In this document: piece by piece, positions 3,801-61,330 of the stretch
How the letters are laid out: each line of letters opens with the position of its first letter
Numbering within the stretch: the stretch's first letter is position 1
From: Lunularia cruciata
Lineage: Eukaryota; Streptophyta; Marchantiopsida; Lunulariales; Lunulariaceae
DNA length: 64,000 bases
Direction: 5' to 3'
Assembly: GCA_948567375.1 (NCBI GenBank)
Contig: OX419756.1
Span: 28,534,333-28,598,332, forward strand
The notes under the pieces: model-generated
Told to the model about the DNA's origin: nothing
Seen by the model: only the letters and a program-made list of their open reading frames with translations
Databases searched by the model: none
Position numbers and translations under genes: made by a program

Positions 3801-5427
3801 TTATTTCAAAGGCTTTGAGGCATAAGGCTATGGATCAAAGAAGCTATGAAGGCCCTTTTATGGGTAATTATGAAGGCCCTTCTAGTTTCTTATTTCAAAG
3901 GCTTTGAAGGCTTTGGTAGTTTTTTGGTAGATTTTGCCTATTTTGGAAGCTTCAAGGCATAAGGATGTAGGCTAGAGAGGCTACAAAGGCCTAGAAAGGT
4001 CAACAAGCTAGCATGAGGCTAGCCAATTTAGATGAGTTTCTGGTAGCTATATGGAAAAATCTACCCACCCTTCTAGATTGTATGCAATAGTGTTTGAACC
4101 TCAGATCTCTAGTTCCTAGGTTAGTGTTCTAGCCAAGTAGTCCATCCTTTCTTGTTGTCCTAGTGATTGGTAGACTAGTTAGTACCTTTACCCATGTACC
4201 TTTGGCTGGGAAAGGAAGTTTAATCCTATCCTTGGTGATCTAGGTAGCTTAGAAGTATACAAACACTCTCATTATATCAAATACCAAATGGTGCTAGAGT
4301 CAATCTGGTGTTGATTTATGAGATGGAGTGTTTTTGTTTGGATTTCTTATAATTGGACACTCTCCATTCTCTACTTCTTGTTTGTGCACTATGTTTTTAT
4401 GAGGTGCCTTGGCTTTAAGTGTTGGTGTTTGGGTGTGCTCTTGATAGTGAGGTTGGAGTGATGATCTATTAGACTATCTATATTTCTCTTTGGTGAGGTA
4501 AGAAATGATGATCTGCAAACTATGAGAGTGCATATTGTGATGGTAGGTTATAGGTTGCCTTTCACTTAGTGTAGTTGTCCATAATTAGAGCTACATTAGT
4601 GAGTGATGTTCAATTGGTGGTGCCACTTGGTGGATTACTTATGGTGGTTACATTTATGGTTTAAGTTACATTATCACAATGAGGATTTGGGGATTCTAGA
4701 GGGGATATCATTGTGTATGCAATGGATTAACATAGAGTGATGCTTGGTATTAGCTTGTATTTGAGGTCCCAATAATGGTGGAGATTGACTTCAATTTGGA
4801 GTTTGATATACAAGTTGATTTGGTTAAGAGTTCACCTAGTTTGTCCATACCATTATTGTGGAACATGGGTAAGATTTATGGGGCCTCCAAGAGCTCCAAG
4901 TGGTACTTTGGTATAATGGGTACCATTTAGTTGGATGACTCCATCTAGGAGTTTAATAGTTGGTATGAGCTATTGTAAATGAAAAACTCAACTTTGTTCA
5001 TACCCTTCATGGCATGGAAGGGGTTGTTCTATCACTTGTAGGGTCCCTTGTTGGATGATTACCATGAGTTAAAGAGAGCTCACTTGGAGGACATTGAGCT
5101 ATGGAGATAATATTGGTCTCCAAACTACATTTTTATCACTTCAAGCTTGGTTTCTAGGGATAGATTTGCAATACCTACAAGTTTTAGCTTTAATAGCATT
5201 GGTGTACCTAGTAGAGGTACACTAGTTAGAGATGGTGCTACTATGAGTGGAAGTACTACTACAAGAGGTGGTGCAATACCAAAGTTTAACCTCATAGTGG
5301 AGTTCTTTTAGTGGTTGAGGTAAACTACCAAGGAGTGTGGATTGACAAGCTGAGAAGCTTGTAGGAGTTCCAAAGGTAGGCTAAAAAGAGCTTATGCAAG
5401 GCATACACTTGCATAAGATGGCTGATT
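3801..5427 (+). other. Degenerate repeat sequence left of element A
   Basis: No intact gene is visible. At 4289-4302 the string TGGTGCTAGAGTCA resembles a decayed initiator-Met primer-binding site (TGGTATCAGAGCCA, 10 of 14 matches), so this may be the 5' end of an old LTR element. The stretch around 4330-4570 shares scattered wording with 18380-18620, suggesting a common repeat family. Translation of 4770-5300 gives short broken frames that I cannot assign. Confidence 0.25.
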
Positions 5428-12899: not shown

Positions 12900-13588
12900 T
12901 GTGAGCCGGCCAGTCTCTCACTCATGATGAACCTTTGATGGCTATTATGGTAGTGTATCATGACTAAGAAGGCAAGGAACCCCAAATCCATCATACTCCT
13001 CCAAGGTTAACACTCCAAGACTCAAGACATTGCTCACTAGAGAATTTAATGGGAGAGAGATAGTTGCAAATGAAAGGATGATGAGTACCTCCTCATCTCT
13101 TGTTTATATACTTGTGAAATAGTTACACACTAAAGTCACTATTTACCAAAGTAACTCAAGTTACTAGGCTAAAAGTCAAGTAAAGTCAAAAAGTATAAAG
13201 GAGTATCCATCTACATGGGTATATTCCACTAAGCATGTGATCTTATCTTGACCCAACAAATACATCAAGGATTCCTTCACATGGGCTATCCTTGGACTAT
13301 AGAAGAATCCAAGACAAAAAGGCTTACAGGCCCAAGAATTCCCAACTCTTTCCTCAAAGCCAAACACCTAGGAATAATACCAAGTCAACACACTAGAATC
13401 CAAAATAGTGGTGCTCATCTTTTCCACTTCCTCTAAAGTAAGGTCCCCTCTATCTTAGCTATGACCAACTTTAGCTAATCATGACTAATATAGAACTATT
13501 ATTTATCTATATAAATAATATCTCTCAAGTACTTATTATACGAAGCTAAATATCACAATACCACACACATGCACAAATGGGTGTTATA
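12900..13588 (-). repeat. Solo LTR of the B family, reverse orientation, in gag of C
   Basis: It begins TGTGAGCCGGCC and ends GGGTGTTATA, the reverse complement of the B-family LTR. The flanks are GACC (12896-12899 and 13589-13592), an exact 4-bp duplication. No internal sequence is present, so it is a solo LTR left by recombination. Confidence 0.9.
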
Positions 13589-14465: not shown

Positions 14466-15990
14466 GATAAATCTGTTTTTGTGGTGTGGATCAAGCCAAT
14501 TGCACAAGGACAATTTGAGGAGGGCATAGAGCCTCATCAAGCAATGGTTGATCAGATAGTTCAAGAGTTTGTGGATGTGTTTTGGGATGATCTGCCAAAG
14601 GAATTACCCTCTGATCATGGTATGCCCTTCAAGATTGAGTTATTGTCAAGGAGTACTCTAATGAGTAGACCAATCTATCGGCTCACACCAAAGGAGTTTG
14701 AGGAGTTGCAAACAATACTTATGGAGTTGTTAGAGAAGGACTTCATACAACATAGCACCTCTCCTTAGGGAGCACTGATACTATTCATTTTGAAGAAGGA
14801 TGGAGGACTTTGTTTTTGTATTGATTACCATGGGCTCAATAAAAAAATAGTGAATGCATATCCCTTGCCTCAAATCAATGACTTGCTTGATCAATTGAGT
14901 GGAATATGATACTTTTCCAAGTTGGATCTTCACAATAGCTATTGGAAAATCTCCATTGATAGGGAGGATGTGCAAAAGATTACCTTTTGTACAAGGTATG
15001 GGTATTTCAAGTGGAGAGTTTTACCTTTCGGGCTCACTAATGGTCTAGCAGTCTTCATGGATCAGATGCATTGGGTGTTGGATGGACTATTGGATTGATA
15101 TGTGGTGGTGTTCTTGGATGATATATTAATCTATAGTAAGACAAAGATAGAACACATGAATCATGTGCAAGAAGTCCTAAGACAACTACAACAATGGAAA
15201 TTTTACTGTAAGAAGTCAAAGTGTGCCTTTTGGCAAAAGGAAGTTACCTTCTTGAGTCACAAGATCTCATCGGAGGAGATCAAGATGGAAGAGGAGAAAA
15301 TCAAGGTCATTATTGATTGGCCTACTCCAAAGGATGCAACAAAAGTATGGGCATTTAATGGATTGGCTAGTTTTTATCGACGATTCATCCATTATTATGC
15401 TCATGTGGTTGCACCATTGGTTGACCTCTGGAGGAAGAACTTGAGCTTCTAGTGGACCACCAAGCATGAAAAAGCATTCCAAAAGTTAAAACATATGGTG
15501 TCTTCAAGGCCCATTCTTCAACCATATGATCCTCAACTACCTTGCATGGTTGATTTTGATACTTCTAACTTTGTAATTGGAGCCGTGTTGCAAGAGGAAT
15601 TCCTAGATAGACTACATCTCATTGTCTTTGTGTCTTGGTGACTAAATACAATTGAAAGAAATTACTCTACTCAAGATCAAGAACAACTTACAATGGTATA
15701 TGCTACCAAGGTATGGAAGCATTATCTCTTAGGAAAATAAGTGATCATGCAAATTGATCACAAACTATTGTTGTAGACCTTACACTTGAAACACATGAAG
15801 AGTCAACATCATCAATTGGAGGAACAACTCCAATTGTTTGACATCAAACTTGAGTACAAACCAGGTTGGTTCCATGTCATCCATGATGCTCTATCACAAC
15901 AACCTGATTTGAAGTCTCTTCCTCTCATCACGACAACAATTCTGATGGTGTCAATTGACTCCAAGGTCCAAAACAAGTTTTGATTAGCTC
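14397..15990 (+). pseudogene. pol: Reverse transcriptase and RNase H of element C
   Basis: RT motifs appear in order: [37 protein letters not shown] (motif A, Asp present); VLPFGLTN (motif B); and VVFLDDILIYSK (motif C, DD present) near 15105. The thumb reads NGLASFYRRFIHYYAHV. RNase H follows with FVIGAVLQ near 15575, VYATKVWKHYLLGK near 15705 and a HDALSQQPDL end near 15885. Stops fall at 14766-14768 (TAG where D has TGG), 14908, 15098, 15451 and several places in RNase H. Confidence 0.85.
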
Positions 15991-16527
15991 TACAACAAGA
16001 TCCCTTCTTCCAAATGGTACATGGTCATCTTATAGTATGCGACAAGGAGTACAACACCTTCTCCTTCAAGGAAGACCTTTTATTCCATGAGGATTGGATC
16101 TATGTTCCAACCAAAGGTGATCTCCAACCTATACGCCTTCAACAAGCCCATGATTTACCAATAGCTGGTCACATGGGTGTAGAAAAGACCTTGGGTACCC
16201 TCCAGCATTGATGGTGGTGGCCCAACATGACACAAGATGTTCAAGAGTTTGTCCAATTGTGTGAGAGCTGCCAACGTAACAAGGCCAACAACCAAAAGCT
16301 GAATGGACTCCTTCAACCACTCCACATTCCATCTGCTCAATGGGAACACATGAGCTTGGATCTCATCACATCCTTGCCCAAGACAAAGCAAGTACATACA
16401 ACAATCGTGGTGTTTGTGGATAAGCTTAGTAAGCAAATCCACTTGGCACCAACCTTTGATATTGTGGATGCTCCAACCTTAGCGCAAATCTACTTTGACA
16501 ATATCTTCAAGCATCATGGGATGCCAC
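15991..16527 (+). pseudogene. pol: Integrase of element C, N-terminal half
   Basis: It has the H-H-C-C zinc region (HDLPIAGHMGVEKT around 16150, CESCQRNK around 16262) and the first core segment HMSLDLITSLP with the first catalytic Asp near 16360. TAG/TGA stops occur at about 15982 and 16209. The frame is interrupted after HHGMP at 16527 by a 2.2-kb insertion; the integrase continues at 18752. Confidence 0.82.
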
Positions 16528-28721: not shown

Positions 28722-30971
28722 TTGAGGATTGGGCCATCAAACCAAAGAGTCACTATTCCTGTGACTAACACCACCAACACTTCACATTCAGATACACCAT
28801 CTTCTGATTATTGGGAATCAGATTCTGAAGAAGGAGCTTCAGGTGTGGACACAAGCATGGAGGAAGAGACTTCCACGGAGGAGGATGAATTTGAATCTGA
28901 TATAGATGTGTATCCCTTGTGTGCTATGGATTTTGCACCTAAGCCAGAGGTTTTGAAGGACCTAGATAAATCACCATTGACACTTGAGGAGGTAGAGAGA
29001 AGGTTATCTACCCTCAAGTATGGTCCAAATATTACCAAGGAGGAGAAGGTGAGATTTGAGGAGATTTTCCGCAAGTTCATCCATGTGTTTGCTTTTAGTT
29101 ACAAGGATTTGAAGGAAGTCACCTTGGAGGAGCACAAGATAGAGGTGGAGTCACATGCAAGACCAATCCGCCAAAAGCAACGTTGCATTAGCCCACCAAT
29201 ATCTTTGGTTGTGAAGGAGGAGATTGATAAGCTCAAGGAGGCTGGATTTATCTTTGAGGTGGAAAATTCAGAATGGGTGTCTCCAATTGTCATTGTGAAA
29301 AAAAAGAATGGCAAGCTTCGGGTATACAAGAAGCTCAATGCTGCTACCAAGAAGGACTACTACCCATTGCCATTCATTGATGAGATCTTGGAGGAGGTTG
29401 CAGGTCATGAGAGGTACAGTTTTGGAGATGGTTATAGTGGATACAACCAAATCAAGATTGCACCAGAGCATCAACAACTCACCACGTTCACCACACCTTG
29501 GGGAACTTACGCTTTCAAGGTCATGCCTTTCGGGCTTTGCAATGCTCCAACCACATTCCAACGGTTCATGAACAAGGTATTTGAACCTTTCATTGGGAAA
29601 TTTGTGAGAGACTTCATTGATGACTTTTGTGTCTATGGGAGCAAGGAGGAGCACTTTGAGCACCTAATCAAAGTCTTGCAATGCTTGGATGAAACAAATG
29701 CATCACTCAACCTAGAGAAGTGCATTTTTGGATGTGAAGAAGGTCTACTTTTGGGGCACATCATCTCCAAGGATGGAATAGTAGTTGATACTGAGAAGGT
29801 GAGGAAAATCTCAGACCTTCCATTCCCTTCAAGCTTGACAAAGTTATGCCAATTCTTGGGGATGGTTGGATACTATAGGAGGTTCATCTTCTCATTTTCC
29901 AACAAAGCTTATGCATTGACCATCTACATGAAGAAGGGTGTAGATTACATGGTGATTTTGGAGGACAAGGAGGCTCTCAAAGCTTTTGAGGAGCTCAAGC
30001 AATCCCTTGTTGTAGCTCCAATTCTTGCTAAGCCTGATTGGAGTAAGCCTTTCATCCTCTACACTAATGCTTCTAATGTAGCTATAGGATGCACTCTTAG
30101 TCAATTAGACCAAGATGTGCATGATCATCCAATAGCTTATGCTAGTAGGCAGATGGTTTCAGCAGAGAAGAACTACTCTGTCACGGAGAGAGAAGGGTTG
30201 GCAGTGATCTTTGGTCTCAAGAAGTTTAGACACTACTTGATTGGAGGGAAAGCCACCATTGTCACGGATCACAAGGCTTTGAAGTACATCTTCAACAAGC
30301 CTAGTGTTGAAAGGAGACTAGCAAGGTGGATGATACTCTTATCTGAGTATGACTACACCATTGAGGATAGGCTAGGAAAGAAACATGCAAATGCTGATTT
30401 GTTATCAAGAGCCTATGATCATGATGGAGATGAGCCAATGGATGATTCCTTCCCGGATGAGGAGCTCATGATAATCTCAATCACTCAAGAGGTTCCAATG
30501 GAGTACAAGGAGATTGTGGATTTTGTGACAAGAGGTAACTATCCAGAAGGGATGCATGCTAGGGAGAGGAAGGCCCTTGCAGCAAGATCTAGACCTTACA
30601 CAATGGTGGAGGATATTCTTTTTCACCAAGGAGCAGATGGTCTACTTCAAAGAGCAGTGGGTAAGGAAGAATCTATCCTACTCATAAAGGAGTTTCATGA
30701 AGGTTTAGTATGTGGAGGACACTTTGCAAGAAAGGTGACTGCTTTCAAGATTCTAGATGCAGGTTACCATTGGAGAGGGATTTTCAAGGATTGTCTTGAT
30801 TATTGCAAAACTTGTCATGTTTGTCAAGCTTTTGCTAGAAAGTCTACATCCACTCCACCACTTAGATCAATTCCATTGCTAGGACCTTTTGAGAAGTGGG
30901 GAATTGATTTTGTAGGTCCTCTCAATAGAACCCCAAGGAACAATTGGTACATTGTGGTAGTTACTAATTAA
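28722..30971 (+). CDS. pol: Reverse transcriptase, RNase H and integrase N-terminus of element B
   Basis: The frame continues in phase with gag-pro. An acidic linker (residues ~25-60) precedes RT. RT motifs: YYPLPFIDEILEEV; FGDGYSGYNQI (motif A Asp present); VMPFGLCNAPTTFQRF; and FIDDFCVYG (motif C). Three codons appear deleted before motif A, since KLRVYKKLNAATKKD lacks the usual CVD. RNase H shows TNASNVAIGCTLSQ, TEREGLAVIFGLKKF, VTDHKALKYI and NADLLSR. Integrase has the zinc region (H near EFHEGLVCGGHF, CKTCHVC) and the first core Asp in WGIDFVGPL. The frame ends at TAA (30969-30971), where a Tyr or similar codon (TAY) would be expected before LTKWVEARPL. Confidence 0.92.
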   Translation: MRIGPSNQRVTIPVTNTTNTSHSDTPSSDYWESDSEEGASGVDTSMEEETSTEEDEFESDIDVYPLCAMDFAPKPEVLKDLDKSPLTLEEVERRLSTLKYGPNITKEEKVRFEEIFRKFIHVFAFSYKDLKEVTLEEHKIEVESHARPIRQKQRCISPPISLVVKEEIDKLKEAGFIFEVENSEWVSPIVIVKKKNGKLRVYKKLNAATKKDYYPLPFIDEILEEVAGHERYSFGDGYSGYNQIKIAPEHQQLTTFTTPWGTYAFKVMPFGLCNAPTTFQRFMNKVFEPFIGKFVRDFIDDFCVYGSKEEHFEHLIKVLQCLDETNASLNLEKCIFGCEEGLLLGHIISKDGIVVDTEKVRKISDLPFPSSLTKLCQFLGMVGYYRRFIFSFSNKAYALTIYMKKGVDYMVILEDKEALKAFEELKQSLVVAPILAKPDWSKPFILYTNASNVAIGCTLSQLDQDVHDHPIAYASRQMVSAEKNYSVTEREGLAVIFGLKKFRHYLIGGKATIVTDHKALKYIFNKPSVERRLARWMILLSEYDYTIEDRLGKKHANADLLSRAYDHDGDEPMDDSFPDEELMIISITQEVPMEYKEIVDFVTRGNYPEGMHARERKALAARSRPYTMVEDILFHQGADGLLQRAVGKEESILLIKEFHEGLVCGGHFARKVTAFKILDAGYHWRGIFKDCLDYCKTCHVCQAFARKSTSTPPLRSIPLLGPFEKWGIDFVGPLNRTPRNNWYIVVVTN

Positions 30972-30998
30972 CTTACCAAGTGGGTTGAGGCTAGACCA

Positions 30999-31613
30999 TT
31001 GAGGGACAAGAATGAAGATGAAATGGGTAGATTTCTTTATGAACGCATTATCACTAGGTTTGGATGCCCTTTGGAGTTGGTTTCTGATAGAGGAGGAGAG
31101 TTTACAAGAAGCATTACTACAGCCATGCTACGACATTTCTCTATCACCCATAGAGTAACTACATCTTATAAGCCAAATTCCAATGGCTTGGCAAAGAGAA
31201 CCAATCAGACCTTGTGCATGATGTTGGCCAAAGATGCAGAAATGGAAGGGGCTAAACATCATTGGGACAAGAGGATTCATGCAGTTTTGTGGGAGTATAG
31301 GACAACTATGAAAACTTCCACCGGATATTCTCCATTTCAATTGGTGTATGGTATTGAGTCTACCTTACCTATTCACTTTGATCTTCCTACCTTCCAAAGC
31401 ATTCATAGGAGATTGAAGAAAGCACAAGGAGGTGATGCAGAGAAGTCAAGGAAGGATCAACTCATGGAGTTGGAAGAGGCAAGAGCAGTTGTTATGGTTC
31501 GAGTGGAGCAAGCCCAAAGGAAACAAATGGAGAGCTATGAAAAGAGGCAAGGCAAGAAGAAGGTGGAGACTTTCAAAGAAGGTGATTGGGTAATGTTGTT
31601 TGATTCCATTTGA
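30999..31613 (+). pseudogene. pol: Integrase C-terminal part of element B
   Basis: Phase is unchanged after the TAA, so this is the same reading frame. The second catalytic Asp lies in ELVSDRGGEFT. The third catalytic residue should be Glu in a GxAE(R)TNQ-type motif, but the sequence reads GLAKRTNQT, a Glu-to-Lys change (AAG for GAG). This residue is needed for strand transfer, so the encoded integrase would be inactive even without the stop. The frame ends with a typical C-terminal segment, FKEGDWVMLFDS, and then TGA. Confidence 0.85.
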
Positions 31614-36477: not shown

Positions 36478-37167
36478 TGTGAGCCGGCTTGTCTCTCACT
36501 CAAGATGAACCTCTGATGGTTATTATGGTAGTGCACCATGGACTAAGAAGGTAAGGAACCCGAACTCCATCATACTCCTCCAAGGCTAACACTCCAAGAC
36601 TCAAGACATTGCTCACTAGAGAACTCAATGAGAGAGATAGTTGCAAATGAAAGGATGATGAGTACCTCCTCACCCCTTGTTTATATACTTGTGAAATAGT
36701 TATGTACCAAAGTTACTAATTACCGTAGTAACTCAAGTTACTAGACTAAAAGTCAAGTAAAGTCAAAAAGTAGAAAGGAATATCCATTCACATGGGCATA
36801 TTCCCCTAAGCATGTGGTCTTATCTTGACCCAACCACTAAGTCAAGGATTCTTTCACATGGGCTATCTTTGGACTAAAGAAGAATCCAAAACAAAAAGGC
36901 TTGCGGGCCCAAGAGTTCTCAACTCTTTTCTCAAAGCCAAACACCTAGGAATAATACCAAGTCAACACACTAAAATCCAAAATAGTGGTGCTCATCTTTT
37001 CTACTTCCTCTAAAGTAAAGTCCCCTCTATCTTAGCTATGACTAACTTTAGCTAACCATGACTAATATAGAACCATCCTTTATCTCTATACAAATAATAT
37101 CTCTTAAGTACTTGTAATACCAAGCTAAATATCAGAATACCACACACATGCACAAATGGGTGTTACA
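36478..37167 (-). repeat. Solo LTR of the B family, reverse, near the edge of the giant 3' LTR
   Basis: TGTGAGCCGGCT to GGGTGTTACA, flanked by GTAC (36474-36477 and 37168-37171). Removing it restores tgtgggtaccaca, the same end as the right LTR at 47707-47718. Confidence 0.93.
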
Positions 37168-37190: not shown

Positions 37191-38570
37191 ATGTGAGTGT
37201 CCATACAAACATCAGCTTTGGGTTCTTTATACAAGTCTGAGTCTACGGTCCAATATTTTTGAACTCTCCATCCGTTCACTTGAGTGGCAAATGGATTGCC
37301 CTCCAGGTCTGCAAGTTGAATAAAGCTATTGTCACAAATGAGAATTTTACAATATGGCTCCATCCACCTTAAGTGCAGCTTGCCTAGAAAAAATATTTAG
37401 TGATTGTCATATAACAACACCAAATTGCTTTCTCAAATAGGAATAGGCTTTATGCACTTATCATGTCTAACTTTATGCTGATCTTGTACCTCCTTTGTGG
37501 TTTGCATTACATCATCTCTTTTCTCTTCTAACCACGTTAGTTGATGGATCTAAAGATCTTGACTTTCTTCCTCTGACAATCATTCCTCACAAAGGATCCG
37601 ATATGCCGATACTTCAAATTCAACTGGTAGTATGGGATGCAATCTATATGTTAGAAAATATGGAGTTTTTTTGGTGGTAATATTTTTGGTGGTTCTATAT
37701 GCCCACAAAGCTGCAGGTAACTTTGTCATAGGCATAATTGACAATCACCTTGTTCAAAATTTTGCACAACAATCCATTTGCTTTCTCTATTAGTCCATTC
37801 ACTTTTGAATAATAAGGAGTTGTCTTTTTGATGTTTAATCTGGAAGTACTTGGTTAAGGCTTCCACCATTGAGTTTAAAAAACAAGTCCTTCAATCATTG
37901 ACCAATTTCAAAGGACATCAATAACTTGAAATGATGTTTTGGAAGAAAAATTTTGTGACTATTTTTGTATTATCTCTCCGAGTTTCCTTAGCTTCAACCA
38001 TCTTAGTAGAATAATCAATCCACACCAAGATGTATCTCTTTCTCCTGAATTGGGTCACCGGTTGAATCAGACCCACAAAATCAATTTCCTATTTTTCAAA
38101 TGGGGGCCAATGGAAAATTGGTCTCAAAGGCCATCGGGAAGTAGCTATCAGTTTTCCTATTCTTTGACAAGCATCACAACTTTAGATATGGGCCTGAGTA
38201 TCCTTGTACATCATAGGCCACCAATGCACCGATGCAAGAATTTTCCTTACAATATTCTTTAGTGCATAGTGTCTCCCAATGCTTCCAAGTTTAAGGACTC
38301 AATTACTCTTCCAACTTTATATGCTTCCTAGCATCTTCAAAGTACTTTTTCTTTGCTCATTTTAAACAAGATGTTGTGTTTTAGCTGATATGGTCCCATT
38401 TTCTTGAGGAAGACTGCCCTTTGCTCTAGGTCCAGTCCCTCAAGACACTAGCAAGTATGCAGATAATGATATTTTGCCATATATCTTGTACTTTGCATCA
38501 CCATCAAATGGTATAACTCTTTGTCAAGAAACCAATCATTGACTTCCACATCTTGGTCTTGAGATTCTAA
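37191..38570 (-). pseudogene. pol: Integrase of the giant element
   Basis: On the minus strand, text from about 38200 down to 37880 reads CDACQRIGKL (end of the zinc region), WPLRPIFHWPPFEK, IDFVGLIQPV (first catalytic Asp) and ILVWIDYSTKMVEAKET. Later text to 37200 is broken, with stops and frame changes. The frame follows RNase H in the usual Ty3/gypsy order. Confidence 0.72.
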
Positions 38571-38571
38571 T

Positions 38572-39027
38572 CTAAATAGGAATTCCACATTCAAATGCAA
38601 AGCTCCCTTCCTTACTTGTACAATGTATGTGAATTCTTGTAGCAACAGGATCCATCTTGGAATTCACCTTGACAAATTTGCCTTCTTCACCAAATGTTGT
38701 AAAGCAAATGGTCCACATAGAAGACAAACTCATATCCCAACAAGTAGTGGTGAAACTCTTTGCATATACCATTCCAAGTGCTTCTCTTTCAATCATCAAA
38801 TAATTTTTTCTTGCAACTAAAAGCTGTTGGCTTGTATAGTAGACTAGATAGTCTTTCTTCTTCTTGTCCGCCTGACTTAAGACTACTCCAATTTCCATGA
38901 ACAAAGTGTCCACATACACATGAAAAGGGGTATCTCAATTTGGAGCCCTCATAACTGGTGCTTCAACCTATTTCTTCTTCAACACTTGGACAGCTTCTTC
39001 TTGTTTTGCTTCCCACAAGTAATCTTT
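38572..39027 (-). pseudogene. pol: RNase H of the giant element
   Basis: The frame 38572-38919 contains FMEIGVVLSQ, LVYYTSQQLLVARKNY and MIEREALGMVYA, the standard RNase H order with its acidic residues. It is separated from the RT thumb by the solo LTR at 39032-39722. Stops occur near 38948-38970. Confidence 0.8.
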
Positions 39028-39031
39028 GGAC

Positions 39032-39722
39032 TATAACACCCATTTGTGCATGTGTATGGTATTGTGATATTTAGCTTGGTATTACAAGTACTTGAGAGAT
39101 ATTATTTATATAGAGATAAAAGATGGTTCTACATTAGTCATGATTAGCTAAAGTTAGTCATAACTAAGATAGAGGAGACCTTACTTTAGAGAAAATGGAA
39201 AAGATGAGTACCATTATTTTGGATTCTAGTGTGTTGACTTGGTATTATTCCTAGGTGTTTGGCTTTGAGGAAAGAGTTGAGAACTCTTGGGCCCGCAAGC
39301 CTTTTTGTTTTGGATTCTTCTATTGTCCAAGGATAGCCCATGTGAAGGAATTCTTGACTTAGTGGTTGGTTCAAGATAAGATCACATGCTAGTGGAATAT
39401 GCCCATGTGAATGGATATTCCTTTCTACTTTTTGACTTTACTTGACTTTTAGTCTAGTAACTTGAGTTACTGCAATAATTAGTAACTTTGGTAAATAAAT
39501 TTTTCACAATTATATAAACAAGGGGTGAGGAGGTACTTATCATCCTGTCATTTGCAACTATCTCTCTCTCATTGAGTTCTCTAGTGAGCAATGTCTTGAG
39601 TCTTGGAGTGTTAGCCTTGGAGGAGTATGATGGAGTTGGGGTTCCTTGCTTTCTTAGTCCATAGTGCGCTACCATAATAGCCATCAAAGGTTCATCCTGA
39701 GTGAGAGACATGCTAGCTCACA
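39032..39722 (+). repeat. Solo LTR of the B family in pol of the giant element
   Basis: It starts TATAACACCC (the G of TG mutated) and ends TAGCTCACA. The flanks are GGAC and AGAC, a 4-bp duplication with one change. Minus-strand pol text reads on across it once it is removed. Confidence 0.9.
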
Positions 39723-39726
39723 AGAC

Positions 39727-40680
39727 TTCTTTAAAAGCTTTGTTAGGGGTGCAACAAGCACCACATAGTTTGATACAAAGCATTTGTAGTATCCAACATG
39801 TCCCAAGAAGGCTCTCAACTCCGGAATGCTTTTAGGGGATTCCAAAGCTAAAATGAATTTCCACCTTCCCAACATTGACTTCAATACCTTGGCTTGAGAC
39901 CCAATGCTCCAAAAGAATTCCTTCTTTCATTGTGAAGAAGCATTTCTCCAAGTGTAATGACAAGCCAAAAATTGACACCTTTCAAAAGTTTTGTGAAGGT
40001 AATCCAAATGTACTTCTCTTTGCCCAAACACACAAAAATCATCAATGAAGACTTCCAAAAATTTTTGCAAAAAATCTTTGAAGATTGCATTCATCATGCA
40101 ATGGAAAGAAGCAAGAGCATTACATAACCCAAAGGGCATTTAATTATAAGTGGAAGTGCCCTTATTGGTAGTGAATGCAGTTTTTTCCTTATCTTCTTCT
40201 TGAATAGACTCTTGATTATAGCTTGGAAATCCATCAAGAAAGGTATAGCAAGGATGACCAGCTACTTGGTCCAAAATTGTATCGGTCAAAGGTAAGGGAT
40301 GATGATCCTTCCTTGTAGTTGCATTCAGCTTGCAAAAGTCTTGGCAAATCTTCCTAGTCTTCTTCTTCAAAACAATGATGATGGGGAAACCCCCTCATTG
40401 CTCAAGATGGGGAAAATTATCCCCCAAGTACTTGTCAATCTCATCTTTCACCAAGAGTGAGTACTTTAGGTTCAAGTGATACTGTCTTTGCCAAACCGGA
40501 ACTGCACCGTCAATTAGATCAATTTGATGTTCTCCAAATTGTTGTGGAATACCCAATATTTGATCAATCGACCAAGTAAATACATATTGGAATTCTATAA
40601 ATAAGGCAGTGTATCTTGCCAACTCCTCCAGAGTGACTATCTTTGAAATTTTCAAAATTTTACCTTCGGCCAAGACAACA
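39727..40680 (-). pseudogene. pol: Reverse transcriptase of the giant element
   Basis: Minus-strand frames in order: 40395-40673 (finger region, VWQRQYHLNLKYSLLVKDEI); 40140-40370 (ARKDHHPLPLTDTILDQVAGH-type segment and FLDGFPSYNQ, motif A); 39927-40139 (MPFGLCNALASFH, then FIDDFCVFG, motif C); and 39684-39884 (IPELRAFLGHVGYY thumb). The wording matches non-chromoviral plant elements. Frame breaks occur near 40391, 40137 and 39885. Confidence 0.85.
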
Positions 40681-47859: not shown

Positions 47860-48489
47860 AGTCAATTATGGGAGACCAATATAGGAGATCTCCATTCAAA
47901 TCCATATATATATAGGAAGTGGTTCTACACAATACATAATATGTGGGGAGCTTATTGTCCAAATTCAACCCTGTCATCCAATTAATAGCTTTATGGTGAG
48001 AGCTAAGGTTCTTGTAACAATAGCAAAGTCATATGATGTGTTAGTTGGTAGAGCAATGTATAATCCATAGATTTCAATATTGATGATTGGAAGGAGATAA
48101 CTTCCTATAAGCTAGGTTGGGAATCAGGTGAGGGATGGGTATGTTGCCTACTGGTATGCTTTAGTAGTGACAATCTTAGCTCACTATAGTCATGGACCAT
48201 GGTATTAATTTCAGCTTTCAATGGTTCTATTACTTGGCTTAGTGACTTATTAAAGAGGAACACCCATGCAAGAGATACCCTAGTATTAGAGGAAATCACT
48301 CAGATTTGAGGTACAAGTGGGATTGTTCTATCCATATTGGATGTTCCATTGTGGAGTTACAAGGAGGTATTGCAACAACATGCATATAAATTTCAATTGT
48401 GCAACAAGTTTGGAGTGGAGCCTTTCTACCACCAAGAGAGTAGTATGAGGATGGTGTCTATTACCTCGTCACCTTTGGATACCACACTT

Positions 48490-49455
48490 ATTGCTTGGTA
48501 ATATCCAATAGAAGGAATATGCATATTAGAGTTGTTTGGTGGGATTAGCGTTGGAATTGCTGTGATAGTACATGCAAGTATATGAGGTACTTGTATATGG
48601 AGAGAGATGAGATTGCTAAGCAAGTCTCTTTACATCATGTGGCACACTTGGTCTATCAATATCCTGATTTATTACCAATGTCAATAGACAAAGGTACCAA
48701 AAGATTGTATTCATAGACATTTCCTTGTTGGGGACATAAGATTTGGAAAGACATGGTCCCATTCATTTTTTGATTTTTGGATGGCCATGTCAAGGACATA
48801 CACATGTTGGCTGAGGTTAGGGTCTACAAGATCCTATTTTGGTGTGTTTGGGAGATATTACATATACTACAACATCTTCAAGTTCATTAGTCCATTTCTC
48901 TAGCCTACATTTATAACAGCCTTTTGATAGGTGATTCTAATTCACGTGTAGTGGTGAGTACAATCAGGTCCATTCTTGGATGGGACTTCCATGTTGTTAG
49001 ATGTAGCCAAAGTTAGATCCCAAGCACATTATCTTCATCATTGATGAGAAAACCTCTTACCTAGAGAGGTTTTACAACATACTTATGATGAGTTCAAGAA
49101 GTAGCCCAATTGTTGATGTCATTATGGATATTGGGTAATAGTCTCAGATGGTGGTAGTGGTTGATAGGTCACCTATGGCATTGGTGAACCTTGTTAGGCA
49201 ACCCAAAGTAGCTTTACCCACATTCATGAGTTTCCCATATGTTTTTTGAGAGAGAGGTCTTGGATTCTTTTAGGACTCACAATTATAGCAATTGGTGGAT
49301 TCCAATGCCAATGAGAGAAAGTAGGGAATGGGTTTTCTGAGCTAGTATTTTTGCAATTTTATTAGTGTTAAAGGAATCCAAACATCAAGTGTTATGTCAA
49401 GCTATGGACCTAAATTTTTTGACCTGGATTGTGAGCCTTGGCTTGGCAAAGTAGC
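48490..49455 (+). pseudogene. C5-cytosine DNA methyltransferase, copy 1 (in element G)
   Basis: C5-methyltransferases move a methyl group from S-adenosylmethionine to cytosine in DNA. Motif I, LELFGGISVGIAV, is at 48526-48561 (cofactor pocket). YLYMERDE at 48588-48611 gives the acidic residue that binds the ribose. Motif IV, GWPCQGH, is at 48779-48799 with the catalytic Cys. Then come GLQDP and LQHLQ text, a decayed motif VI near 48910-48930 (the ENV equivalent is lost), LLGD/IGDSNSR text, a motif IX relative, NANER, near 49302, and motif X, QAMDLNFLTWIVS, at 49398-49436. Successive motifs lie in three frames, so it is a pseudogene. A second copy is at 51600-52500. Confidence 0.8.
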
Positions 49456-49859
49456 ATAGGATGTGCTTGATAGGCATCACCACTTGGACATTTGTGAGCT
49501 TTTTGCTTATTGAGGCAAGTCAAGCACATCTTGGGTGATGGACCAAGTGGGCATAATATTCTTGGGAAATAGCCATTAGATGCTAGTAAAAATGGTTTAC
49601 TTGGGGTTCATCTAGGTGAGCATGGTCTACTTGGATTACAGTCTTGGTCTACTTGGGATGCAATTGGAGGACGTGTGAAGCTTGCAACTAGAGTAGAGGG
49701 AGTTTTTTGCTCTGAAGTTGGGGACTTTAACACTTTGGAGTATGACATTATTACCCCTAAGGGCCAAATGTAGTAACCAATCAGTGCATCTTCTACTCCT
49801 AAATTAGTTATAAATGATACTTGGGAGCAAAACATTGGACCCAAGCTTATAGGAAGAGA

Positions 49860-50434
49860 AAGATGCAGAATTTGGAGGTTCTTAAGAAGCTACACAAGTT
49901 GTTTTGCCTTTAGTATGAAGGATATGGGTGCTCTAAAAGGACTTGGTATTTTGATTGAGTTGACTAATGATAAAATAGCTTTTTTTGTCCCTACAAATAT
50001 AATGACATGGAAAGAGCATTGATTTAGAGCCAAAGTAAAGACCTTTTTGAGGTTGATTTGGTGGAAATTTCACATAGAGAGTATGCTATAACTATAGTGA
50101 TTCTAACCAAGAAGGATATACATGGCAGCTACACAAATAGGTAGATGTGTAGAAATTACCACCCTATCAACCAACAAAATAAGACTAATTGATGTACTAT
50201 GCTTATACCAAAGGAGATCTTTGATATGATTGTGCATGCAAAGGTCTTCAATCCTTTGGATCTTTGAGCAAGATATCATCAATTGCCAATCAATGAGGAG
50301 GACAACTCCAAGATAACATTTTTGGCTATTAATCCTCATGTAAGGATGTATTATATCAATGGAAGTTCTAACCATTTTGGTTAAAGAACATTCTTGCCAA
50401 GTTCTAAAGGATCATGGATAGGATCCCTAACCGG
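49860..50434 (+). pseudogene. pol: Reverse transcriptase fragment of element G
   Basis: Text in order: LEVLKKLHKLFCL (RT N-terminal helix), GILIELTND, ILTKKDIHGSY, YHPINQQNKTN, MLIPKEIFDMIVHAKVF and YHQLPINEEDNSKITF, matching the finger and palm of plant Ty3/gypsy RTs. The motif A region reads NPLDL where LDL is expected. It is cut near VMDR-type text (KGSWIG) at 50434 by the gap. It lies about 400 bases after the methyltransferase, in the same direction. Confidence 0.75.
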
Positions 50435-50634
50435 NNNNNNNNNNNNNNNNNNNNNNNNNNNNNNNNNNNNNNNNNNNNNNNNNNNNNNNNNNNNNNNNNN
50501 NNNNNNNNNNNNNNNNNNNNNNNNNNNNNNNNNNNNNNNNNNNNNNNNNNNNNNNNNNNNNNNNNNNNNNNNNNNNNNNNNNNNNNNNNNNNNNNNNNNN
50601 NNNNNNNNNNNNNNNNNNNNNNNNNNNNNNNNNN
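50435..50634. other. Assembly gap, 200 N
   Basis: Exactly 200 N. The bases to its right begin inside a B-family LTR, about 233 bp from where that LTR should start, so at least that much is missing and the size is nominal. Confidence 0.98.
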
Positions 50635-51598: not shown

Positions 51599-52560
51599 TA
51601 CCATATATCATAAATACTTGTATGAGGAGAGAGATAAGACAACTAAAATAGTCTCTCTACATCATATGGCACACTTGGCCTATTGGTATCTAGACTTATT
51701 ACCAATGTCAATAGTCAGAGTTACCAAAAGACCCTACCATCATACATTTGTTTGCTTGGGATGCAAGATTTGGAGAGACATTGTCCCATTCATTTGGTGA
51801 TTTTTGGATGGCCATGTCAAAATATACCTATACTAGATAAGATTAATGTTTATAAGATCCTTGTTCTGGTGTGTTCTGGGATATGCTACTTATATTAGGA
51901 TATTTCTTAGTTCATCAAGCAATTTCTTCAACATAAATTTTGGAAAACATCCCTTTGATGGGTAATTCTTGCACATGGGTGATGACAAGTACTCATAAAG
52001 TTTGGTCTTGGATTAGACCTATTGTATTATTAGATGTAGACAGAGTTGGATCAAAAGCTGATTGTCCTTGTCTTTGGTTGACAAACCTCTTACTTAGAGA
52101 GGTTATATAGTATGTTATGATGGGATTCAACAACTAGCCAACCTTATTTTCAATGATAATTTGGATGTTAGATGTTAATCTCAAATGGTAGGAGTATCTG
52201 ATAGGTCATTAAAGGCATTGATGAGCCTTGTAGGTTAGCCTAGATTTACTTTAGCCACACTCATGATTGTTCCAACTTCCCATGCTTATAAGGAGGGAAG
52301 TCTTGGACTTGTTTGGGTCTCAAGAAATTATAAAAATTGGTGGAGCCCAATGTCTATGAGAGAGAGCAAGTGATGGGTTTCTATATTTGATATTACTACC
52401 ATTTCAATAGTGTTAGAAGCATCCAATCATCAAGTGTTAGGTCATGCTATGGATCTGAAATTTTTGACTTGGATTGTGAGCTTTGAGGTGGTTGCATAGT
52501 GTAGGATGGGCTTGATATGCATCACCATTCAAACTGCTTTGAGCTTTGTGCCTATCTGTA
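51599..52560 (+). pseudogene. C5-cytosine DNA methyltransferase, copy 2
   Basis: It begins at YLYEERDK (51615-51638), lacking motif I. Motif IV, IFGWPCQN, lies at 51800-51823. Motif VI, LENIPLMGNS, at 51940-51969 keeps the Glu-Asn pair. Motif VIII text, VDRVGSKADCP and LWLTNLLLREV, follows near 52036-52090. Motif IX, EREQVMGF, lies at 52358-52381 and motif X, HAMDLKFLTWIVS, near 52446-52484. Base-level similarity to copy 1 runs to about 52560. Together the two copies cover every main C5-methyltransferase motif. It is 5' truncated and frameshifted, hence inactive. Confidence 0.82.
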
Positions 52561-54639: not shown

Positions 54640-55400
54640 ATCAATTATTACCTTATGAGTTGGAGTAGTGTAAGGCTCAAATAAAGGATATGCTATAGAA
54701 AGGGTTTATTTCTAAACCCAAGGTATCATCATATGGGGCTTGTGTCTTGTTAGTGAAGAAGAAAGACAGGACAATGAACATTTGCATTGACTTCTGAGGA
54801 CAAAATCAATAGATGTTGAAGGAAAAGTACTCATTACCTTGCATGGATGACCTATTTGATCAGCTCAATAAGGCAAAGCACTACGGAGTGGTTACAACCA
54901 AATCAGAATTGCAAAGGAAGACATACAAAACTACCTTTCAAACAAGGTATGGTCACTTTGAGTATTTGGTGATGCTATTTGGCCTCACCAACACTCTAGC
55001 CACTTTCATGAGTTTGATGAATATGGAATATTTTGTCCATACTTGGATAAATTTGTTATCATTTTCCTTAATGACATCTTAGTCTATAGCAAGATGATGA
55101 TGGAGCACAAGCAACATTTATAAAAATTCCTCTAAATTCTACAACAAAATTAGTTGTATGCTATTATCTCAAACTATGAGTTTGGGAAATTTGAAGTAAA
55201 CTACTTGGGGCATAGAGCAAGTGCAACAAGTATCCAATTGTTAACAGATAAAATAGAAGTCATTCAAAAATTAGGTGCTCTAGAAGATCAGGTTCAACTC
55301 AATAGTTTCTTGGGATTGATAGAGTTCTATTGTTGATTTTACAAGGACTTCTCCAAGGTTGCACAGACTCTAATGGCACTACTTGGCAAGAAGAAGAAGT
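54640..55400 (+). pseudogene. pol: Reverse transcriptase of element F
   Basis: Text in order: SSYGACVLLVKKKDRTMNICIDF; YSLPCMDDLFDQLNKAKHYG; TTFQTRYGHFEYLVMLFGLTNT (motif B); FLNDILVYSK-type text in another frame near 55066 (motif C, first Asp replaced); and FLGLIEFYC (thumb). Motif A reads VVTTKSELQ, with the catalytic Asp lost. Confidence 0.78.
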
Positions 55401-56028
55401 GGATGTGGTGAATTGCACAAGAATTGAAAGATGCATTCTACATGCACTAATATTAAAATAGTATGACCAAAATGTCCAATCAAGGAGGCTATAGATGGAT
55501 TAGGTGTTGCAAGTAGAGCAGTCCTTTGAGAAGAATATAATGATTGATAGCACCCAATTGCATATTTCTCTCAAAATTTGTTACCAATAGAATGCAACTA
55601 TCACACCATCAAACAAGAAGAGTTGGCCATTGTTATTGAAACCAAGAATTGGAAGCACTATCTTGGTGAGAAGGCATTTGTAGTGAAGATAGACCAAAAA
55701 ACTCTAGTCTACCTCAAGACACAAAAAGATCTATCTCATCATTAGATTTGGTGGGTAGAGGTGGAGACAACGGTTCAACATGACAATCACATATATGGAA
55801 AGCAAGAATCCACTTGTAGATGCATTCACTTGGATGCCTATGGCAAATAATATAGTGGTGGAGATCAAGATGAACCTAGAATTCTAGCCAAGGATTCTTG
55901 CTATTATGAAAACTGACCCAAAAATTATAAGAGCTTAATCATCCAAGGCCATAACCAATACCCAAGGACTCACATTTTGTGATGGTAAGTTATGGATTTT
56001 AGATGCCATAGACAAGAACCACAATCCT
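55400..56028 (+). pseudogene. pol: RNase H of element F
   Basis: Broken frames give QEELAIVIETKNWKHYLGEK near 55617-55670 and VKIDQKTLVYLKTQKDLSH near 55685-55740, both standard RNase H segments. Several stops are present. Confidence 0.7.
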
Positions 56029-57331
56029 ATGGAATGTCATGATTCCACCATTGTAGGTCAGATTGGAGTGGACAAGACCTTAAATACAATCAAATGCCAC
56101 TATTATTGGCTCACGATGAGCAACAATGTGATAGAGTGTAATACCAATAACAAGACATATTATCTAGAGGTGAAAATTGACTTGGTAACATTTGGAAGGA
56201 TGTTATGTATGATAGGTTAGGTAGATCAGATAGAGGTGTCACTAAAGGAGTACTTCAAATAATAGGACAGGAGCTGAAAAGAACTTGAAAACTTCAAAGC
56301 CAATTTCAGAGGCCTAAACAATTGAAAATGAAAATATGTTAACTCAACCTCCCATGAGAGAATAGGCTGACCTTCCCTCTTCCTTGTCTATCTCATTGAG
56401 AGCTTTCCAATGGACCCTCATCCTCGTGATTCTAAGATTCCTACATGAAGATTCTCTAAAGATTCCTTTTGGTCAAAGATTGTTGACCAACCAAATAGGA
56501 TCAAAACCAACATGTCATGTATGCATGCAACTAATCTTAGGATAGAGCTTACTAACATGTCACCTATCCATGTATCTGATCCAAGGGTGGAGCTTCCTTT
56601 GAGAGAACACTCTTTGTTATATAATAAAGTCAAGATACTCCTTTGGGGCATCAAAGTATTGAGTGTGAAGCTTGGTATTTCACTTAAGGTCTCCTATTTT
56701 CAAAAGATTACACAGAGTATGTTTCAAGCTGCCTATTTTGTCAACAAAATAAAGCTTCAAATCAAGCTCCTGCTAGACTTTTTCAACCACTCCCTACTCC
56801 AACATAACATTGGAAACATGCAAACATGGATCTAGTTTGTGAATTGGCCAAGACCATCTTAGGGTTTGACTCCATCATAGTCTTTGTGAACCAACTCATC
56901 AAAATGATTCATGTACAACCTACTACCAAGGACATGCCTACTCCACAATTAGCTTAGTTGTACTTAGATGAAGTCTTTTCTCACCATGGCTTGTCTTGAG
57001 TGCTCATCACCAATAGAGGTACTCAATTCACTAATTTTTTTGGAGAACACTCTTTGGTATCTTCAAAACCAAACTGGCCATGTCCATAGCTTACTATTCA
57101 CAAATTGATGGATAAACAAAGCGGGCTAATTGCATTATTGAGAGCATGTTCTAACATTTCAACTTAGATGAGTAAGAGAGGTGGGACATCTTACTTCCAC
57201 CGGTAGAATTTTCCTACAACAATTCAATGAATGTATCTGCATAGGTCACACCATTCTTCTTCATGTATGGAGAGCATCCTTCCATACCTTTGGGTTTGAT
57301 GAAGATCCGCCTGGTAGCTACTAAGGTTGAT
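56029..57331 (+). pseudogene. pol: Integrase of element F, split
   Basis: The zinc region is at 56029-56160 (GQIGVDKTLNTIKCHYYWLTM). After about 550 unrelated bases the text resumes near 56725 with QAAYFVNK, then MDLVCELAKTILGFDSIIVFVNQLIKMIH (first catalytic Asp retained), LITNRGTQFT with the second Asp replaced by Asn, and YSQIDG. It is cut at 57331 by element D. Confidence 0.75.
56148..56700 (+). other. Insertion in integrase of F, containing repeat R copy 2
   Basis: The first ~230 bases match 52568-52790 in the same orientation. The rest (56400-56700) has no match I recognise in the window. It separates the integrase zinc region from the core. Confidence 0.5.
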
Positions 57332-59230: not shown

Positions 59231-59800
59231 AGAGATTGAAACTCATTCTAGACCTTAGAGTCAACTGACACCATTGAAATTGCCGTTGTGATGAGAGGAA
59301 GAGACTTTAAATCAGGTTGTCGTGATAAAGCATTAGGGATGACATGGAACCGACCTGGTTTGTACTCAACTTTGATATCATACAGTTGGAGTTGTTCTTC
59401 CCATTGATGATGTTGACTCTTCATGTGTTCTAAGTGTAAGGTTTGCAACAATGGTTTGTGATCAGTTTGCATGATCACTTGTTTCCCCAAGAGGTAATGC
59501 CTCCATACCTTGGTAGCGTATACCATTGCAAGTTGTTCTCAATCTCAAGCAGAGCAGTTTTGTTCAGCCGTATTGAGTCGGCAAGACACAAAGGCAATGG
59601 GATGGAGTCCATCTGGGAATTCTTGTTGCATCATGGCTCCAATTGCAAAGTTAGAAGCACCAAAATCAACCACACAAGGTAGTTGAGGATCATATGGTTG
59701 AAGAATGGGTCTTGATGACACCATATGCTTTAACTTCTGGAATGCTTCTTCATGCTTGGTGGTCCACTGGAAGCTCAAGTTTTTTCCTAAGAGGTCAGTC
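59231..59800 (-). pseudogene. pol: RNase H of element D
   Basis: Frames 59545-60024 (C-terminal part) and 59248-59526 give VDFGASNFAIGAMMQ, FVSCRLNTAEQN, MVYATKVWRHYLLGKQ, MQTDHKPLLQTL and FHVIPNALSRQPDL, a complete RNase H order. A frameshift or stop lies near 59535. Confidence 0.85.
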
Positions 59801-60760
59801 AATGGTGCAGCCACATGAGCATAATAGTGGATGAACCATCGGTAAAAACTGGCCAATCCATTGAATGCCCGTACTTTTGTAGCATCTTTTGGGGTAGGCA
59901 AATCAGTAATGGCCTTGATCTTTGCTTCTTCCATCTTGATCCCCTCTGATGAGATCTTATGACCCAAGAAGTAACCTCCTTTTGCCAAAAGGCACACTTT
60001 GACTTCTTGCAGTAAAATTTCCATTGTTATAGTCGTCTTAGGACTTTTTGCACATGATTTGCTGTTTTGCCTTTGTCTTGCTAAAGATTAAGATATCATC
60101 CAAGAACACCACCATGGACCAATATAATAGTCTATCCAACACCCAATGCATCTGATCCATGAAGACTGCTAGAGCATTAGTGAGTCCGAAAGGTAGAACT
60201 CTCCACTCAAAATGCCCATACCTTGTGCAAAAGGTAATCTTTTGCACATCCTCTCAATCAAAAGGAATTTGCCAATAGCCGCTATAAAGATCCAGCTTGG
60301 AAAAAAAGCATGCTCCACTTAGTTGATCAAGCAAGTTATCAATCTGAGGCAAGGGATATGCATTCTTCACGGTTTGCTTATTGAGCCCATAATAATCAAT
60401 ACAAAAACAAAATCCTCCATCCTTCTTTGGAACAAATAGTACCGGTGCTCCCCAAGGAGAGGTACTTGTATGACATCCTTCTCCAACAACTCTGTAAGTG
60501 TTGTTTGCAACTCCTCCAACTCCTTTGGTGAGAGCCAAGAGATCCGTCTACTCATTGGAGTACTCCTTGGCAATAACTTGATCTTAAAGGGCATACCTCG
60601 ATCGGAGGGTAATCCCTTTGGCAGATCATCCAGAAACACGTCCACAAACTCCTTAACTATCCGATCAAACATTGCTTGATGAGGCTCTTGGCCCTCCGCA
60701 AATTGTTCTTGTGCAATCGGCTTGATCCACACCACAAATACAGACTTATCTTCCTCCAAA
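59800..60760 (-). pseudogene. pol: Reverse transcriptase of element D
   Basis: Minus-strand frames 60367-60759, 60254-60538, 60038-60247 and 59545-60024 overlap in sequence order. Motifs: [41 protein letters not shown] (motif A); RVLPFGLTNALAVF; and MVVFLDDILIFSK (motif C). The Trp of PWGAP is intact here and a stop in element C. The thumb reads FNGLASFYRWFIHYY. Confidence 0.88.
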
Positions 60761-61330
60761 GCTTGCTCTATGGCTACTTTACTAACAAACTTCCCTTCTA
60801 GGGACTCATCTCTCTTCCAAGCTTGCTCCTTGGTTGCCTTCTTGGCAAACTTCCTATCTTGGGACTCATCTCCCCTCTAGGTTTGCTCTATGGCTACCTT
60901 CTTGACAAACTTCCCATCTTGGGACTTACTATTCTTAGGTGTCTTACTCAGAGGTGCCAGACCGCCTAATCAGAAATTCCTACCTTGGTGTTGTACTTGA
61001 ATTTGGCATCAGGTCCAATCAAATTGAACCTTATGATATTCAAATCAAGGTAGACCCAAAATAATATCATAGTGTAGAGGTGTCACTATAAACCTCATAC
61101 ACTCCAAATACTCCTTCCTTATCTTGAAGGTAACAAGATGCAAGGTGCGGAATGCAGAACCCTTTCTACCATCCGCCATCATCAAACTAATTCTAATCAA
61201 TGGCTTGATAGGAATACCCAATTCCCTTGCATAGACATGCAATTCTCTAAACTTCCAAAATCAACCAATATCCTACAACCCCGATTAGATATCGTACCTT
61301 GCAAGTGAAGAAAAATTGCATAGGTCAAGT
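60745..61330 (-). pseudogene. pro: Protease and 20-residue repeats of element D
   Basis: The active-site text RILVDFGSLENC lies near 61250-61285 and the ILGLP end near 61045. Three ~20-residue units (SQDGKF, SQDRKF, SLEGKF) follow at about 60925-60745, as in element C. Stops occur inside the repeat region. Confidence 0.75.

Follow-up and report, generated by a model that had tools for sequence, protein, structure and literature searches.

Retrotransposons carrying a captured cytosine methyltransferase of the DNMT3 type are known from the charophyte Klebsormidium nitens and the dinoflagellate Symbiodinium (de Mendoza et al. 2018, PMC5890265), in agreement with the earlier note on the DNA analysed here. 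This paper reports that retrotransposon DNMTs can methylate CG sites de novo and proposes a methylation of the cDNA. A survey from 2025 (PMC12344493) records such elements in streptophytes and dinoflagellates, while Morozov et al. (PMC6338049) state that land plants lack them. The closest known system is KnitGypsy-Dnmt3, for which gypsy domains, an unrearranged Dnmt3 inside the polyprotein, DIRS-like repeats and purifying selection on the DNMT have been described (PMC5890265). SymbioDIRS-Dnmt3 and SymbioLINE-Dnmt are likewise retrotransposons with a cytosine methyltransferase, however, they belong to the DIRS and LINE elements instead of Gypsy and are reported as an independent acquisition (PMC5890265). 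The stretch of 64,000 nucleotides analysed here (contig OX419756.1, positions 28,534,333 to 28,598,332; hereafter the window) contains dead pieces of a large, recently active gypsy-type retroelement family of what is probably a liverwort, in which a DNMT3-type methyltransferase (MTase) precedes the reverse transcriptase (RT).

Compared with KnitGypsy-Dnmt3, the liverwort element occurs in a probable land plant, is present in thousands of copies and has its MTase in front of a leaky-type TAG and the RT; for the liverwort element, exact split repeats, 4-bp target duplications and a PHD finger are documented here. The two were compared by description and not by sequence, hence the liverwort element is not placed as a proven member of KnitGypsy-Dnmt3. 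The literature searched contained no report of liverwort or moss retroelements with an MTase, which does not prove their absence in print. As far as this literature goes, the new features are land-plant hosts with thousands of copies, the changed gene order, a TAG of the leaky type, a PHD finger and exactly defined split-repeat ends accompanied by target duplications. We have high confidence in the identification of the element and in its expression layout.

Relics in the window and copies in the genome

Three relics of the element were found in the window; loci fetched from the same genome are given as L numbers, and ORF1 and ORF2 are the two open reading frames (ORFs) assembled from several copies.

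47866..50426, plus strand: relic 1, with the end of the protease (PR) region, the MTase, the TAG and the first RT part; blastn to L028:5124-7722, 76% nucleotide identity, 2608 columns
48526..48555, plus strand: MTase motif I, LELFGGISVG (translation)
48594..48611, plus strand: acidic motif YMERDE, in intact copies YVERDE (translation)
48785..48793, plus strand: PCQ with the catalytic Cys, motif IV (translation)
49398..49436, plus strand: motif X region, QAMDLNFLTWIVS (translation)
49771..49773, plus strand: TAG between MTase and RT, retained in relic 1 (junction comparison)
49777..50425, plus strand: RT relic, beginning of the ORF that follows the TAG; 60-68% identical to ORF2 residues 2-218 by tblastn
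50435..50634, no strand: assembly gap of 200 N that truncates relic 1 (window letters)
51615..52556, plus strand: relic 2, MTase only; blastn to L028:5862-6803, 74%; direct repeats D1/D2
3942..5426, plus strand: relic 3, 5' untranslated part and gag start of the same family; blastn to L028:2098-3639, 74%; tblastn with ORF1 residues 1-153

The motif texts of the MTase and the RT had been placed on the plus strand by the earlier note, and translation recovered all of them at these positions. The order PR region, MTase, TAG, RT in relic 1 follows from its alignment to the better-preserved copy L028. Using tblastn, ORF1 of L025 matched the window at 47894-49764 in four pieces (joint E 2e-117) and the RT ORF of L027 at 49777-50425 in three pieces (E 1e-69), so the likeness of relic 1 to the element is far above chance. 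The copy itself is dead, because many frameshifts and stops have spread its motif texts over three frames.

The genome comprises 566 Mb, about 558 Mb of which lie on eight large contigs. A genome search with PF00145 yielded 2161 candidates, 123 of which were scored and all found above the family cut-off; 117 were taken as element-like, with only the fetched ones checked, and six were set aside as probable host exons or odd cases, of which five were examined. The element-like matches lie in open frames of up to 1428 amino acids. Twelve copies, most of them chosen for long open frames, were read in 10-kb stretches, and every one holds the MTase-TAG-RT junction. The proposal that a C5 methyltransferase and a gypsy-type RT belong to one element is thereby borne out, and the opposite case considered in the earlier note, that the two never share an element, does not apply. 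When the six bases ending with the stop were left free in the pattern, the junction was found at 2,992 places genome-wide with at most three mismatches (control 0), 708 of them exact. The family has about three thousand copies or fragments in the genome; with a full copy length of 9,948 bp, read in one copy (L028/L044), it could account for as much as about 5% of the genome, supposing that most copies are full length.

The composite order is gag-PR-MTase-TAG-RT-RNase H (RH)-integrase (INT)-PHD, with everything from the RT onward in the same frame as ORF1. Two CCHC knuckles in gag and the PR motif LLDSGAQ were read by eye in ORF1, while Pfam detected RVT_1, RNase H, H2C2 and rve in that order. 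The suggested check for PF00145 and RVT_1 was positive for both on open frames of other copies: L025 for the former, L028 (E 3e-31) and L027 (E 6e-32) for the latter. The RT motif YIDD is present in 15 of 16 copies. A PHD finger (PF00628, E 7e-10) is located at the integrase C-terminus in ORF2, where no chromodomain was matched at E up to 0.01. By its domain order, target duplications and TG..CA ends the element is gypsy-type (Ty3). It shares gag-PR-RT-RH-INT and a C-terminal chromatin-reader module with the plant chromoviruses, however, its module is a PHD finger instead of the chromodomain that marks the chromovirus integrase, and it carries the DNMT3-type MTase in addition; it was therefore not classed as a chromovirus.

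Methyltransferase, stop codon and terminal repeats

In L025 the PF00145 match (E 2e-7, over the cut-off) covers profile positions 48-121 of 324, and 11 of 12 relatives match the same profile. The motifs follow the unrearranged order I-IV-VI-VIII-X. Among the genome copies, motif I reads LFGGISTG in 15 of 25 (reference included), ERDE was found in 26/26, WPCQG in 25/26, ENVP in 24/25, AHRLR in 20/24 and the motif X text LGQAMDLN in 23/24; across 12 aligned relatives, the catalytic Cys, the Glu of ENV and both Arg are invariant. A DNMT3 fold is predicted. The earlier note had asked for a comparison with MET1, CMT, DNMT2 and DRM, and by trees and scores the element MTase is closer to the DNMT3 type; it is nearer to DNMT3 than to DNMT1, DNMT2 or DRM, and the family scores rejected an origin from DRM, CMT or MET1. 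Judged by its sequence, it is a DNMT3-type C5 DNA methyltransferase, which is predicted from the kept residues and the fold to be catalytically active. Among 173 element proteins, motif IV reads PCQ in 75, ECQ in 66 and otherwise in 3, with 29 missed by the pattern. The ECQ form (e.g. in P0026, P0032, P0041, P0119 and P0150) retains the catalytic Cys, and 63 of the 66 occur in the order RT-RH-MTase.

Two protein database searches gave 85 and 113 matches, none of them named as Klebsormidium. Identities reach 73% over a part and 70% over the whole of the MTase domain in Marchantia polymorpha and 71% in Calypogeia fissa; among the best named matches, the element MTase is nearest to Calypogeia and Marchantia proteins (68-71%). 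A Sphagnum fallax protein has 47% identity over a gene model with missing parts and 73% over 226 aligned columns, and further relatives come from the green algae Monoraphidium and Cymbomonas and from many unnamed contigs. The host's own DNMT3 is nearest to Riccia fluitans (59%), followed by proteins of Riccia sorocarpa, a lycophyte, a fern and Sphagnum. Together with the liverwort relatives of the element MTase, these matches led to the rejection of the seed-plant host that had been supposed from the window; from such sequence relations the host is most likely a liverwort. Probable host exons were noted at L002, L015, L001, L004 and L003, comprising two of DRM (motif X before motif I), two of DNMT3 and one of CMT. 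De novo methylases of its own hence appear to be retained by the host. The host DNMT3 and DRM genes have a related catalytic domain, but their exons are clearly distinct from the element MTase and fall outside the element clade, DRM being rearranged and the host-type DNMT3 forming a clade of its own.

Two gene orders occur among the 173 proteins. In type I, PR and MTase precede the RT (9 proteins by RT position and 29 by PR position), while the order of type II is RT-RH-MTase-INT-PHD (115 proteins, plus 18 probable ones); two proteins were assigned to neither. Type I is found in liverworts and some contigs, whereas most other relatives, many of them algal, have the MTase after the RNase H. A first MTase tree contained 37 of the element proteins and L025. 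For a more careful tree 13 long, partial or divergent rows were removed, including both host DRMs and five element rows (four type I, one unclear), and with the remaining 33 element rows the sampled element MTases formed one clade (100/100), as did type I (97/94) and land-plant DNMT3 (99/99). With the rows kept as in the first tree, the elements were still one clade (100), and type I included an unclear row (88). A grouping of type I with plant DNMT3 was rejected by the approximately unbiased test (p-AU 0.0007; the group was named after the first tree had been seen), and with it the capture of the host's DNMT3 in recent times. The same test did not reject that all sampled elements go back to an old origin within the plant DNMT3 lineage (p-AU 0.345). 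The RT tree, with five type I rows holding enough RT and RNase H, 45 of 98 type II rows and one other gypsy-type polymerase of the window as outgroup, separates the type II group (96). Both orders share the C-terminal PHD finger, which was detected in 114 proteins compared with 130 for the integrase, and a related RT. The simplest reading of these trees would be one old DNMT3-type capture followed by one later shift of the MTase within the polyprotein. A scan of viral contigs with the MTase alignment gave 35 pattern matches, none of which was confirmed.

The sequence UAG CAR YYA is the leaky stop context of the tobacco mosaic virus (TMV) type. All 28 junctions found in the fetched loci and in the window have TAG as their stop (L011/L033 is one copy counted twice), and CAR YYA fits the following six bases in 25; most copies read CAGCCA there, relic 1 TAACCA. 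A set of 100 listed genome places had TAG in 97, TAA in 2 and TTG in 1, while the preceding codon varied (GTG 66, GTA 22, ATG 7, ATA 3, other 2). These places come from a single contig and represent the least decayed copies, because exact flanks and CAGCCA were fixed in the pattern, and shared descent of the copies inflates the counts of TAG and of the codons. The TAG thus stands in a TMV-like context and is probably read through at some frequency. Sixteen type I proteins of the database were inspected and end 60-164 residues past the MTase, as would be expected if relatives also have a stop at this place, although contig ends may account for some. Expression of Gag-Pol by in-frame stop readthrough has been described in retroelements (PMC10085805, PMC5009743).

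The element starts with TGTCACG and finishes with CGACA (TGTC..GACA). Repeat A (448 bp) occurs twice, once at the left end and once close to the right end, and repeat B (107 bp) directly before and directly after the right-hand A, which results in the split direct repeats A1-body-B1-A2-B2. The earlier note had expected intact copies flanked by long terminal repeats (LTRs) around the MTase-RT pair; the pair does recur genome-wide, but the terminal repeats are split and two complete LTRs are lacking, so the element is not a standard LTR retrotransposon. PAT-like elements have the same repeat layout. The liverwort element differs from DIRS and PAT in its DDE integrase (rve), TG..CA ends and 4-bp target duplications; strict DIRS membership was rejected in view of these duplications and of the three ORFs scanned, in which Pfam matched no tyrosine recombinase at E up to 0.01. 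Ten copies were fetched with both sides, and seven of the eight that could be tested have 4-bp target duplications (GAGG, TCTT, TTTA, AACC, ACTC, CATA and TAGC), the mark of a DDE integrase. L030/L045 is without A1, no A was found in L031/L046, and in L021 A1 is reduced to about 74 of its 448 bp.

The inner B1-A2 junction reads GACA-GC-TGTC, a 10-bp palindrome with two extra bases, in six of seven copies read, and the seventh (L042) has GT in place of GC; the outer ends are without the extra GC. The palindrome resembles two unprocessed ends joined in a circle, the extra bases of which would be trimmed at insertion. The G-rich tract AGCTAGGGGGGCG is located just before B1 and not before A2. If it primes the plus strand, the product would be BA-body-BA and the inserted form would be its circular permutation, cut at B-A. 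Repeat pairs differ at 41 of 3321 sites in six copies, 40 of the 41 being transitions; at an assumed rate of 7e-9 substitutions per site per year, this indicates recent insertions, roughly a million years old. At L046:62-200 (strand-turned), B1 is followed at once by unrelated DNA without A2 and B2, and the left end was not found; this copy may be an insertion of unit length that was cut where B meets A. Additional pieces of the B-A-C or A-C kind stand beside an element end at L048:625-1101 and L034:939-1158 (strand-turned), as nested or tandem insertions or recombination at repeats would leave them.

A possible life cycle and its alternatives

On this basis the following mechanism can be proposed. 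Most ribosomes would halt at the TAG and release Gag-PR-MTase, while a minority would read through UAG CAG CCA and add RT-RH-INT-PHD. Gag-PR-MTase would form the particle, with the readthrough products supplying RT, RNase H and integrase-PHD; because the RT would be made only as a readthrough extension, the MTase would be in excess over it and enter the particle. There it might methylate the element's own cDNA de novo, before or at insertion, so that a copy arrives already marked. Candidate benefits of such a mark are a shield from foreign-DNA sensing, protection of the cDNA, or self-limited expression and thereby a lower cost to the host. The earlier note had suggested self-methylation or an escape from host silencing as a role. 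We consider self-methylation a possible function of the MTase, somewhat short of a probable one. By analogy with the chromodomains of chromoviruses, the PHD finger probably steers the integrase by reading histone tails, and the integrase would insert the permuted A-body-B-A-B form, probably by cutting the B-A junction of a circular intermediate. We know of no description of such a circle-junction route for integrase elements. The complete scenario joins a green-plant lineage that obtained its own de novo MTase before liverworts and green algae separated and has carried it ever since, a leaky stop that places the enzyme at the Gag level in land plants, self-methylation in the particle and a PHD-steered DDE insertion of a permuted, palindrome-cut form. 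As a whole it is tentative and rather doubtful.

Several observations weigh against parts of this proposal. Gag and PR gave no Pfam match in ORF1 and depend on the motifs read by eye. Of 25 copies, 10 have a motif I unlike that of the reference, and the domain is free of stops in just 9 of 24, therefore many of the MTases are dead, and the MTase pN/pS of 0.36 points to only moderate constraint, while the RT has a lower value of 0.12, obtained from a set of 12 that is smaller and diverges less. Nine type I database proteins, some of them Marchantia or Sphagnum gene models and some metagenome proteins, continue from the MTase into the RT without a stop, hence not every member of the family has the TAG. 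The A-B-A-body-B isomer predicted by the circle model was absent among the copies read, no tRNA primer-binding site was recognised after A1, and L027/L043, with both ends present, has unmatched flanks and repeats diverged by 10%. Finally, the two MTase relics have observed-to-expected CpG ratios of 0.05 and 0.00, compared with 0.46 for the corresponding part of L028 and 0.14 for the whole window, and C>T changes in relic 1 amount to 0.51 at CG, 0.46 at CHG and 0.17 at CHH. The window relics thus lost C to T at CG and CHG alike, as under host methylation, and their decay pattern could not separate element-specific from host methylation; the host therefore probably silences old copies anyway.

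The broken MTase text of the window, and relic 2 as an MTase without RT, could also be explained by a host methyltransferase gene or pseudogene lying by chance beside an unrelated retrotransposon, or by a recent pickup in a single copy. This explanation is refuted, with hardly any probability left to it, because the MTase-TAG-RT junction is repeated in all 12 copies and at the 2,992 genome places and the same union is conserved in Marchantia, Sphagnum and algal proteins; the clearly different host DNMT3 and DRM exons outside the element clade speak against it as well. The liverwort elements might instead have taken up a host DNMT3 separately from the algal ones. The two positions of the MTase, before the RT in liverworts and after the RNase H in most relatives, could mean two captures, and independent captures have been argued for dinoflagellates as opposed to charophytes (PMC5890265). 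The single clade of all sampled element MTases, the rejected grouping of type I with plant DNMT3, and the PHD finger and related RT common to both orders make separate captures improbable, while a single ancient capture out of plant DNMT3 was not rejected (p-AU 0.345).

Regarding expression, the TAG could be a true stop, with RT-INT produced by splicing, re-initiation or an internal promoter and the MTase left on the Gag side without a fixed ratio to the RT. Some Marchantia gene models (P0008, P0015) fuse MTase and RT, which may reflect splicing or the predictor's choice. Against this, nearly every junction seen retains the TAG although the preceding codon varies, CAR YYA follows in 25 of 28, the downstream frame is the same, and readthrough of a Gag-Pol stop is known from retroelements (PMC10085805, PMC5009743); we regard a true stop as unlikely, yet as the most serious of these alternatives. 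Slightly less credence is given to an MTase that is structural, binds nucleic acids or acts on RNA instead of methylating DNA. RNA methylation has been raised for SymbioLINE-Dnmt (PMC5890265), and ECQ replaces PCQ at motif IV in the 66 relatives mentioned above, but the copies read mostly keep WPCQG, ENV and RxR together with the predicted DNMT3 fold, and DNMT2-type RNA methylases score far lower.

Neighbouring sequences and implications for bryophytes

A dispersed repeat of about 460 bp has nine copies in the window, eight of which are 82-87% identical to the copy at 50635; the direct repeats D3-D5, considered as LTRs of the MTase element, were rejected because they are this repeat. A second gypsy-type polymerase has 30% identity to ORF2 over 838 aligned positions in one frame. 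Outside the window, an uninterrupted frame of 1165 amino acids adjoins an element copy at L031:6504-9998 (minus strand).

5661, 12900-13357 (minus strand), 24927, 32043, 34509, 36478-36934 (minus strand), 39265, 50635 and 61731: dispersed repeat of about 460 bp
29022-31370, plus strand: second gypsy-type polymerase
14598-16526, 37873-40355 (minus strand), 54881-57041 and 59314-60406 (minus strand): further polymerase relics
60743-60926: 60-bp unit in three tandem copies

The thousands of copies in the probable liverwort host and their relatives in Marchantia and Sphagnum contradict the stated absence of such elements from land plants. For the annotation of bryophyte DNA methyltransferases this means that host DNMT3 must be separated from element MTases, a risk exemplified by the Marchantia element protein P0004, the source name of which starts with 'DNA (cytosine-5'. 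Moreover, how split repeats are copied and inserted becomes a direct question for an element that combines them with a DDE integrase and target duplications. Marchantia can readily be studied in the laboratory, and there it can be tested why a genomic parasite carries the kind of enzyme by which it is silenced. If the proposed scenario is true, the family would represent a retroelement that fixes its own epigenetic state on arrival.
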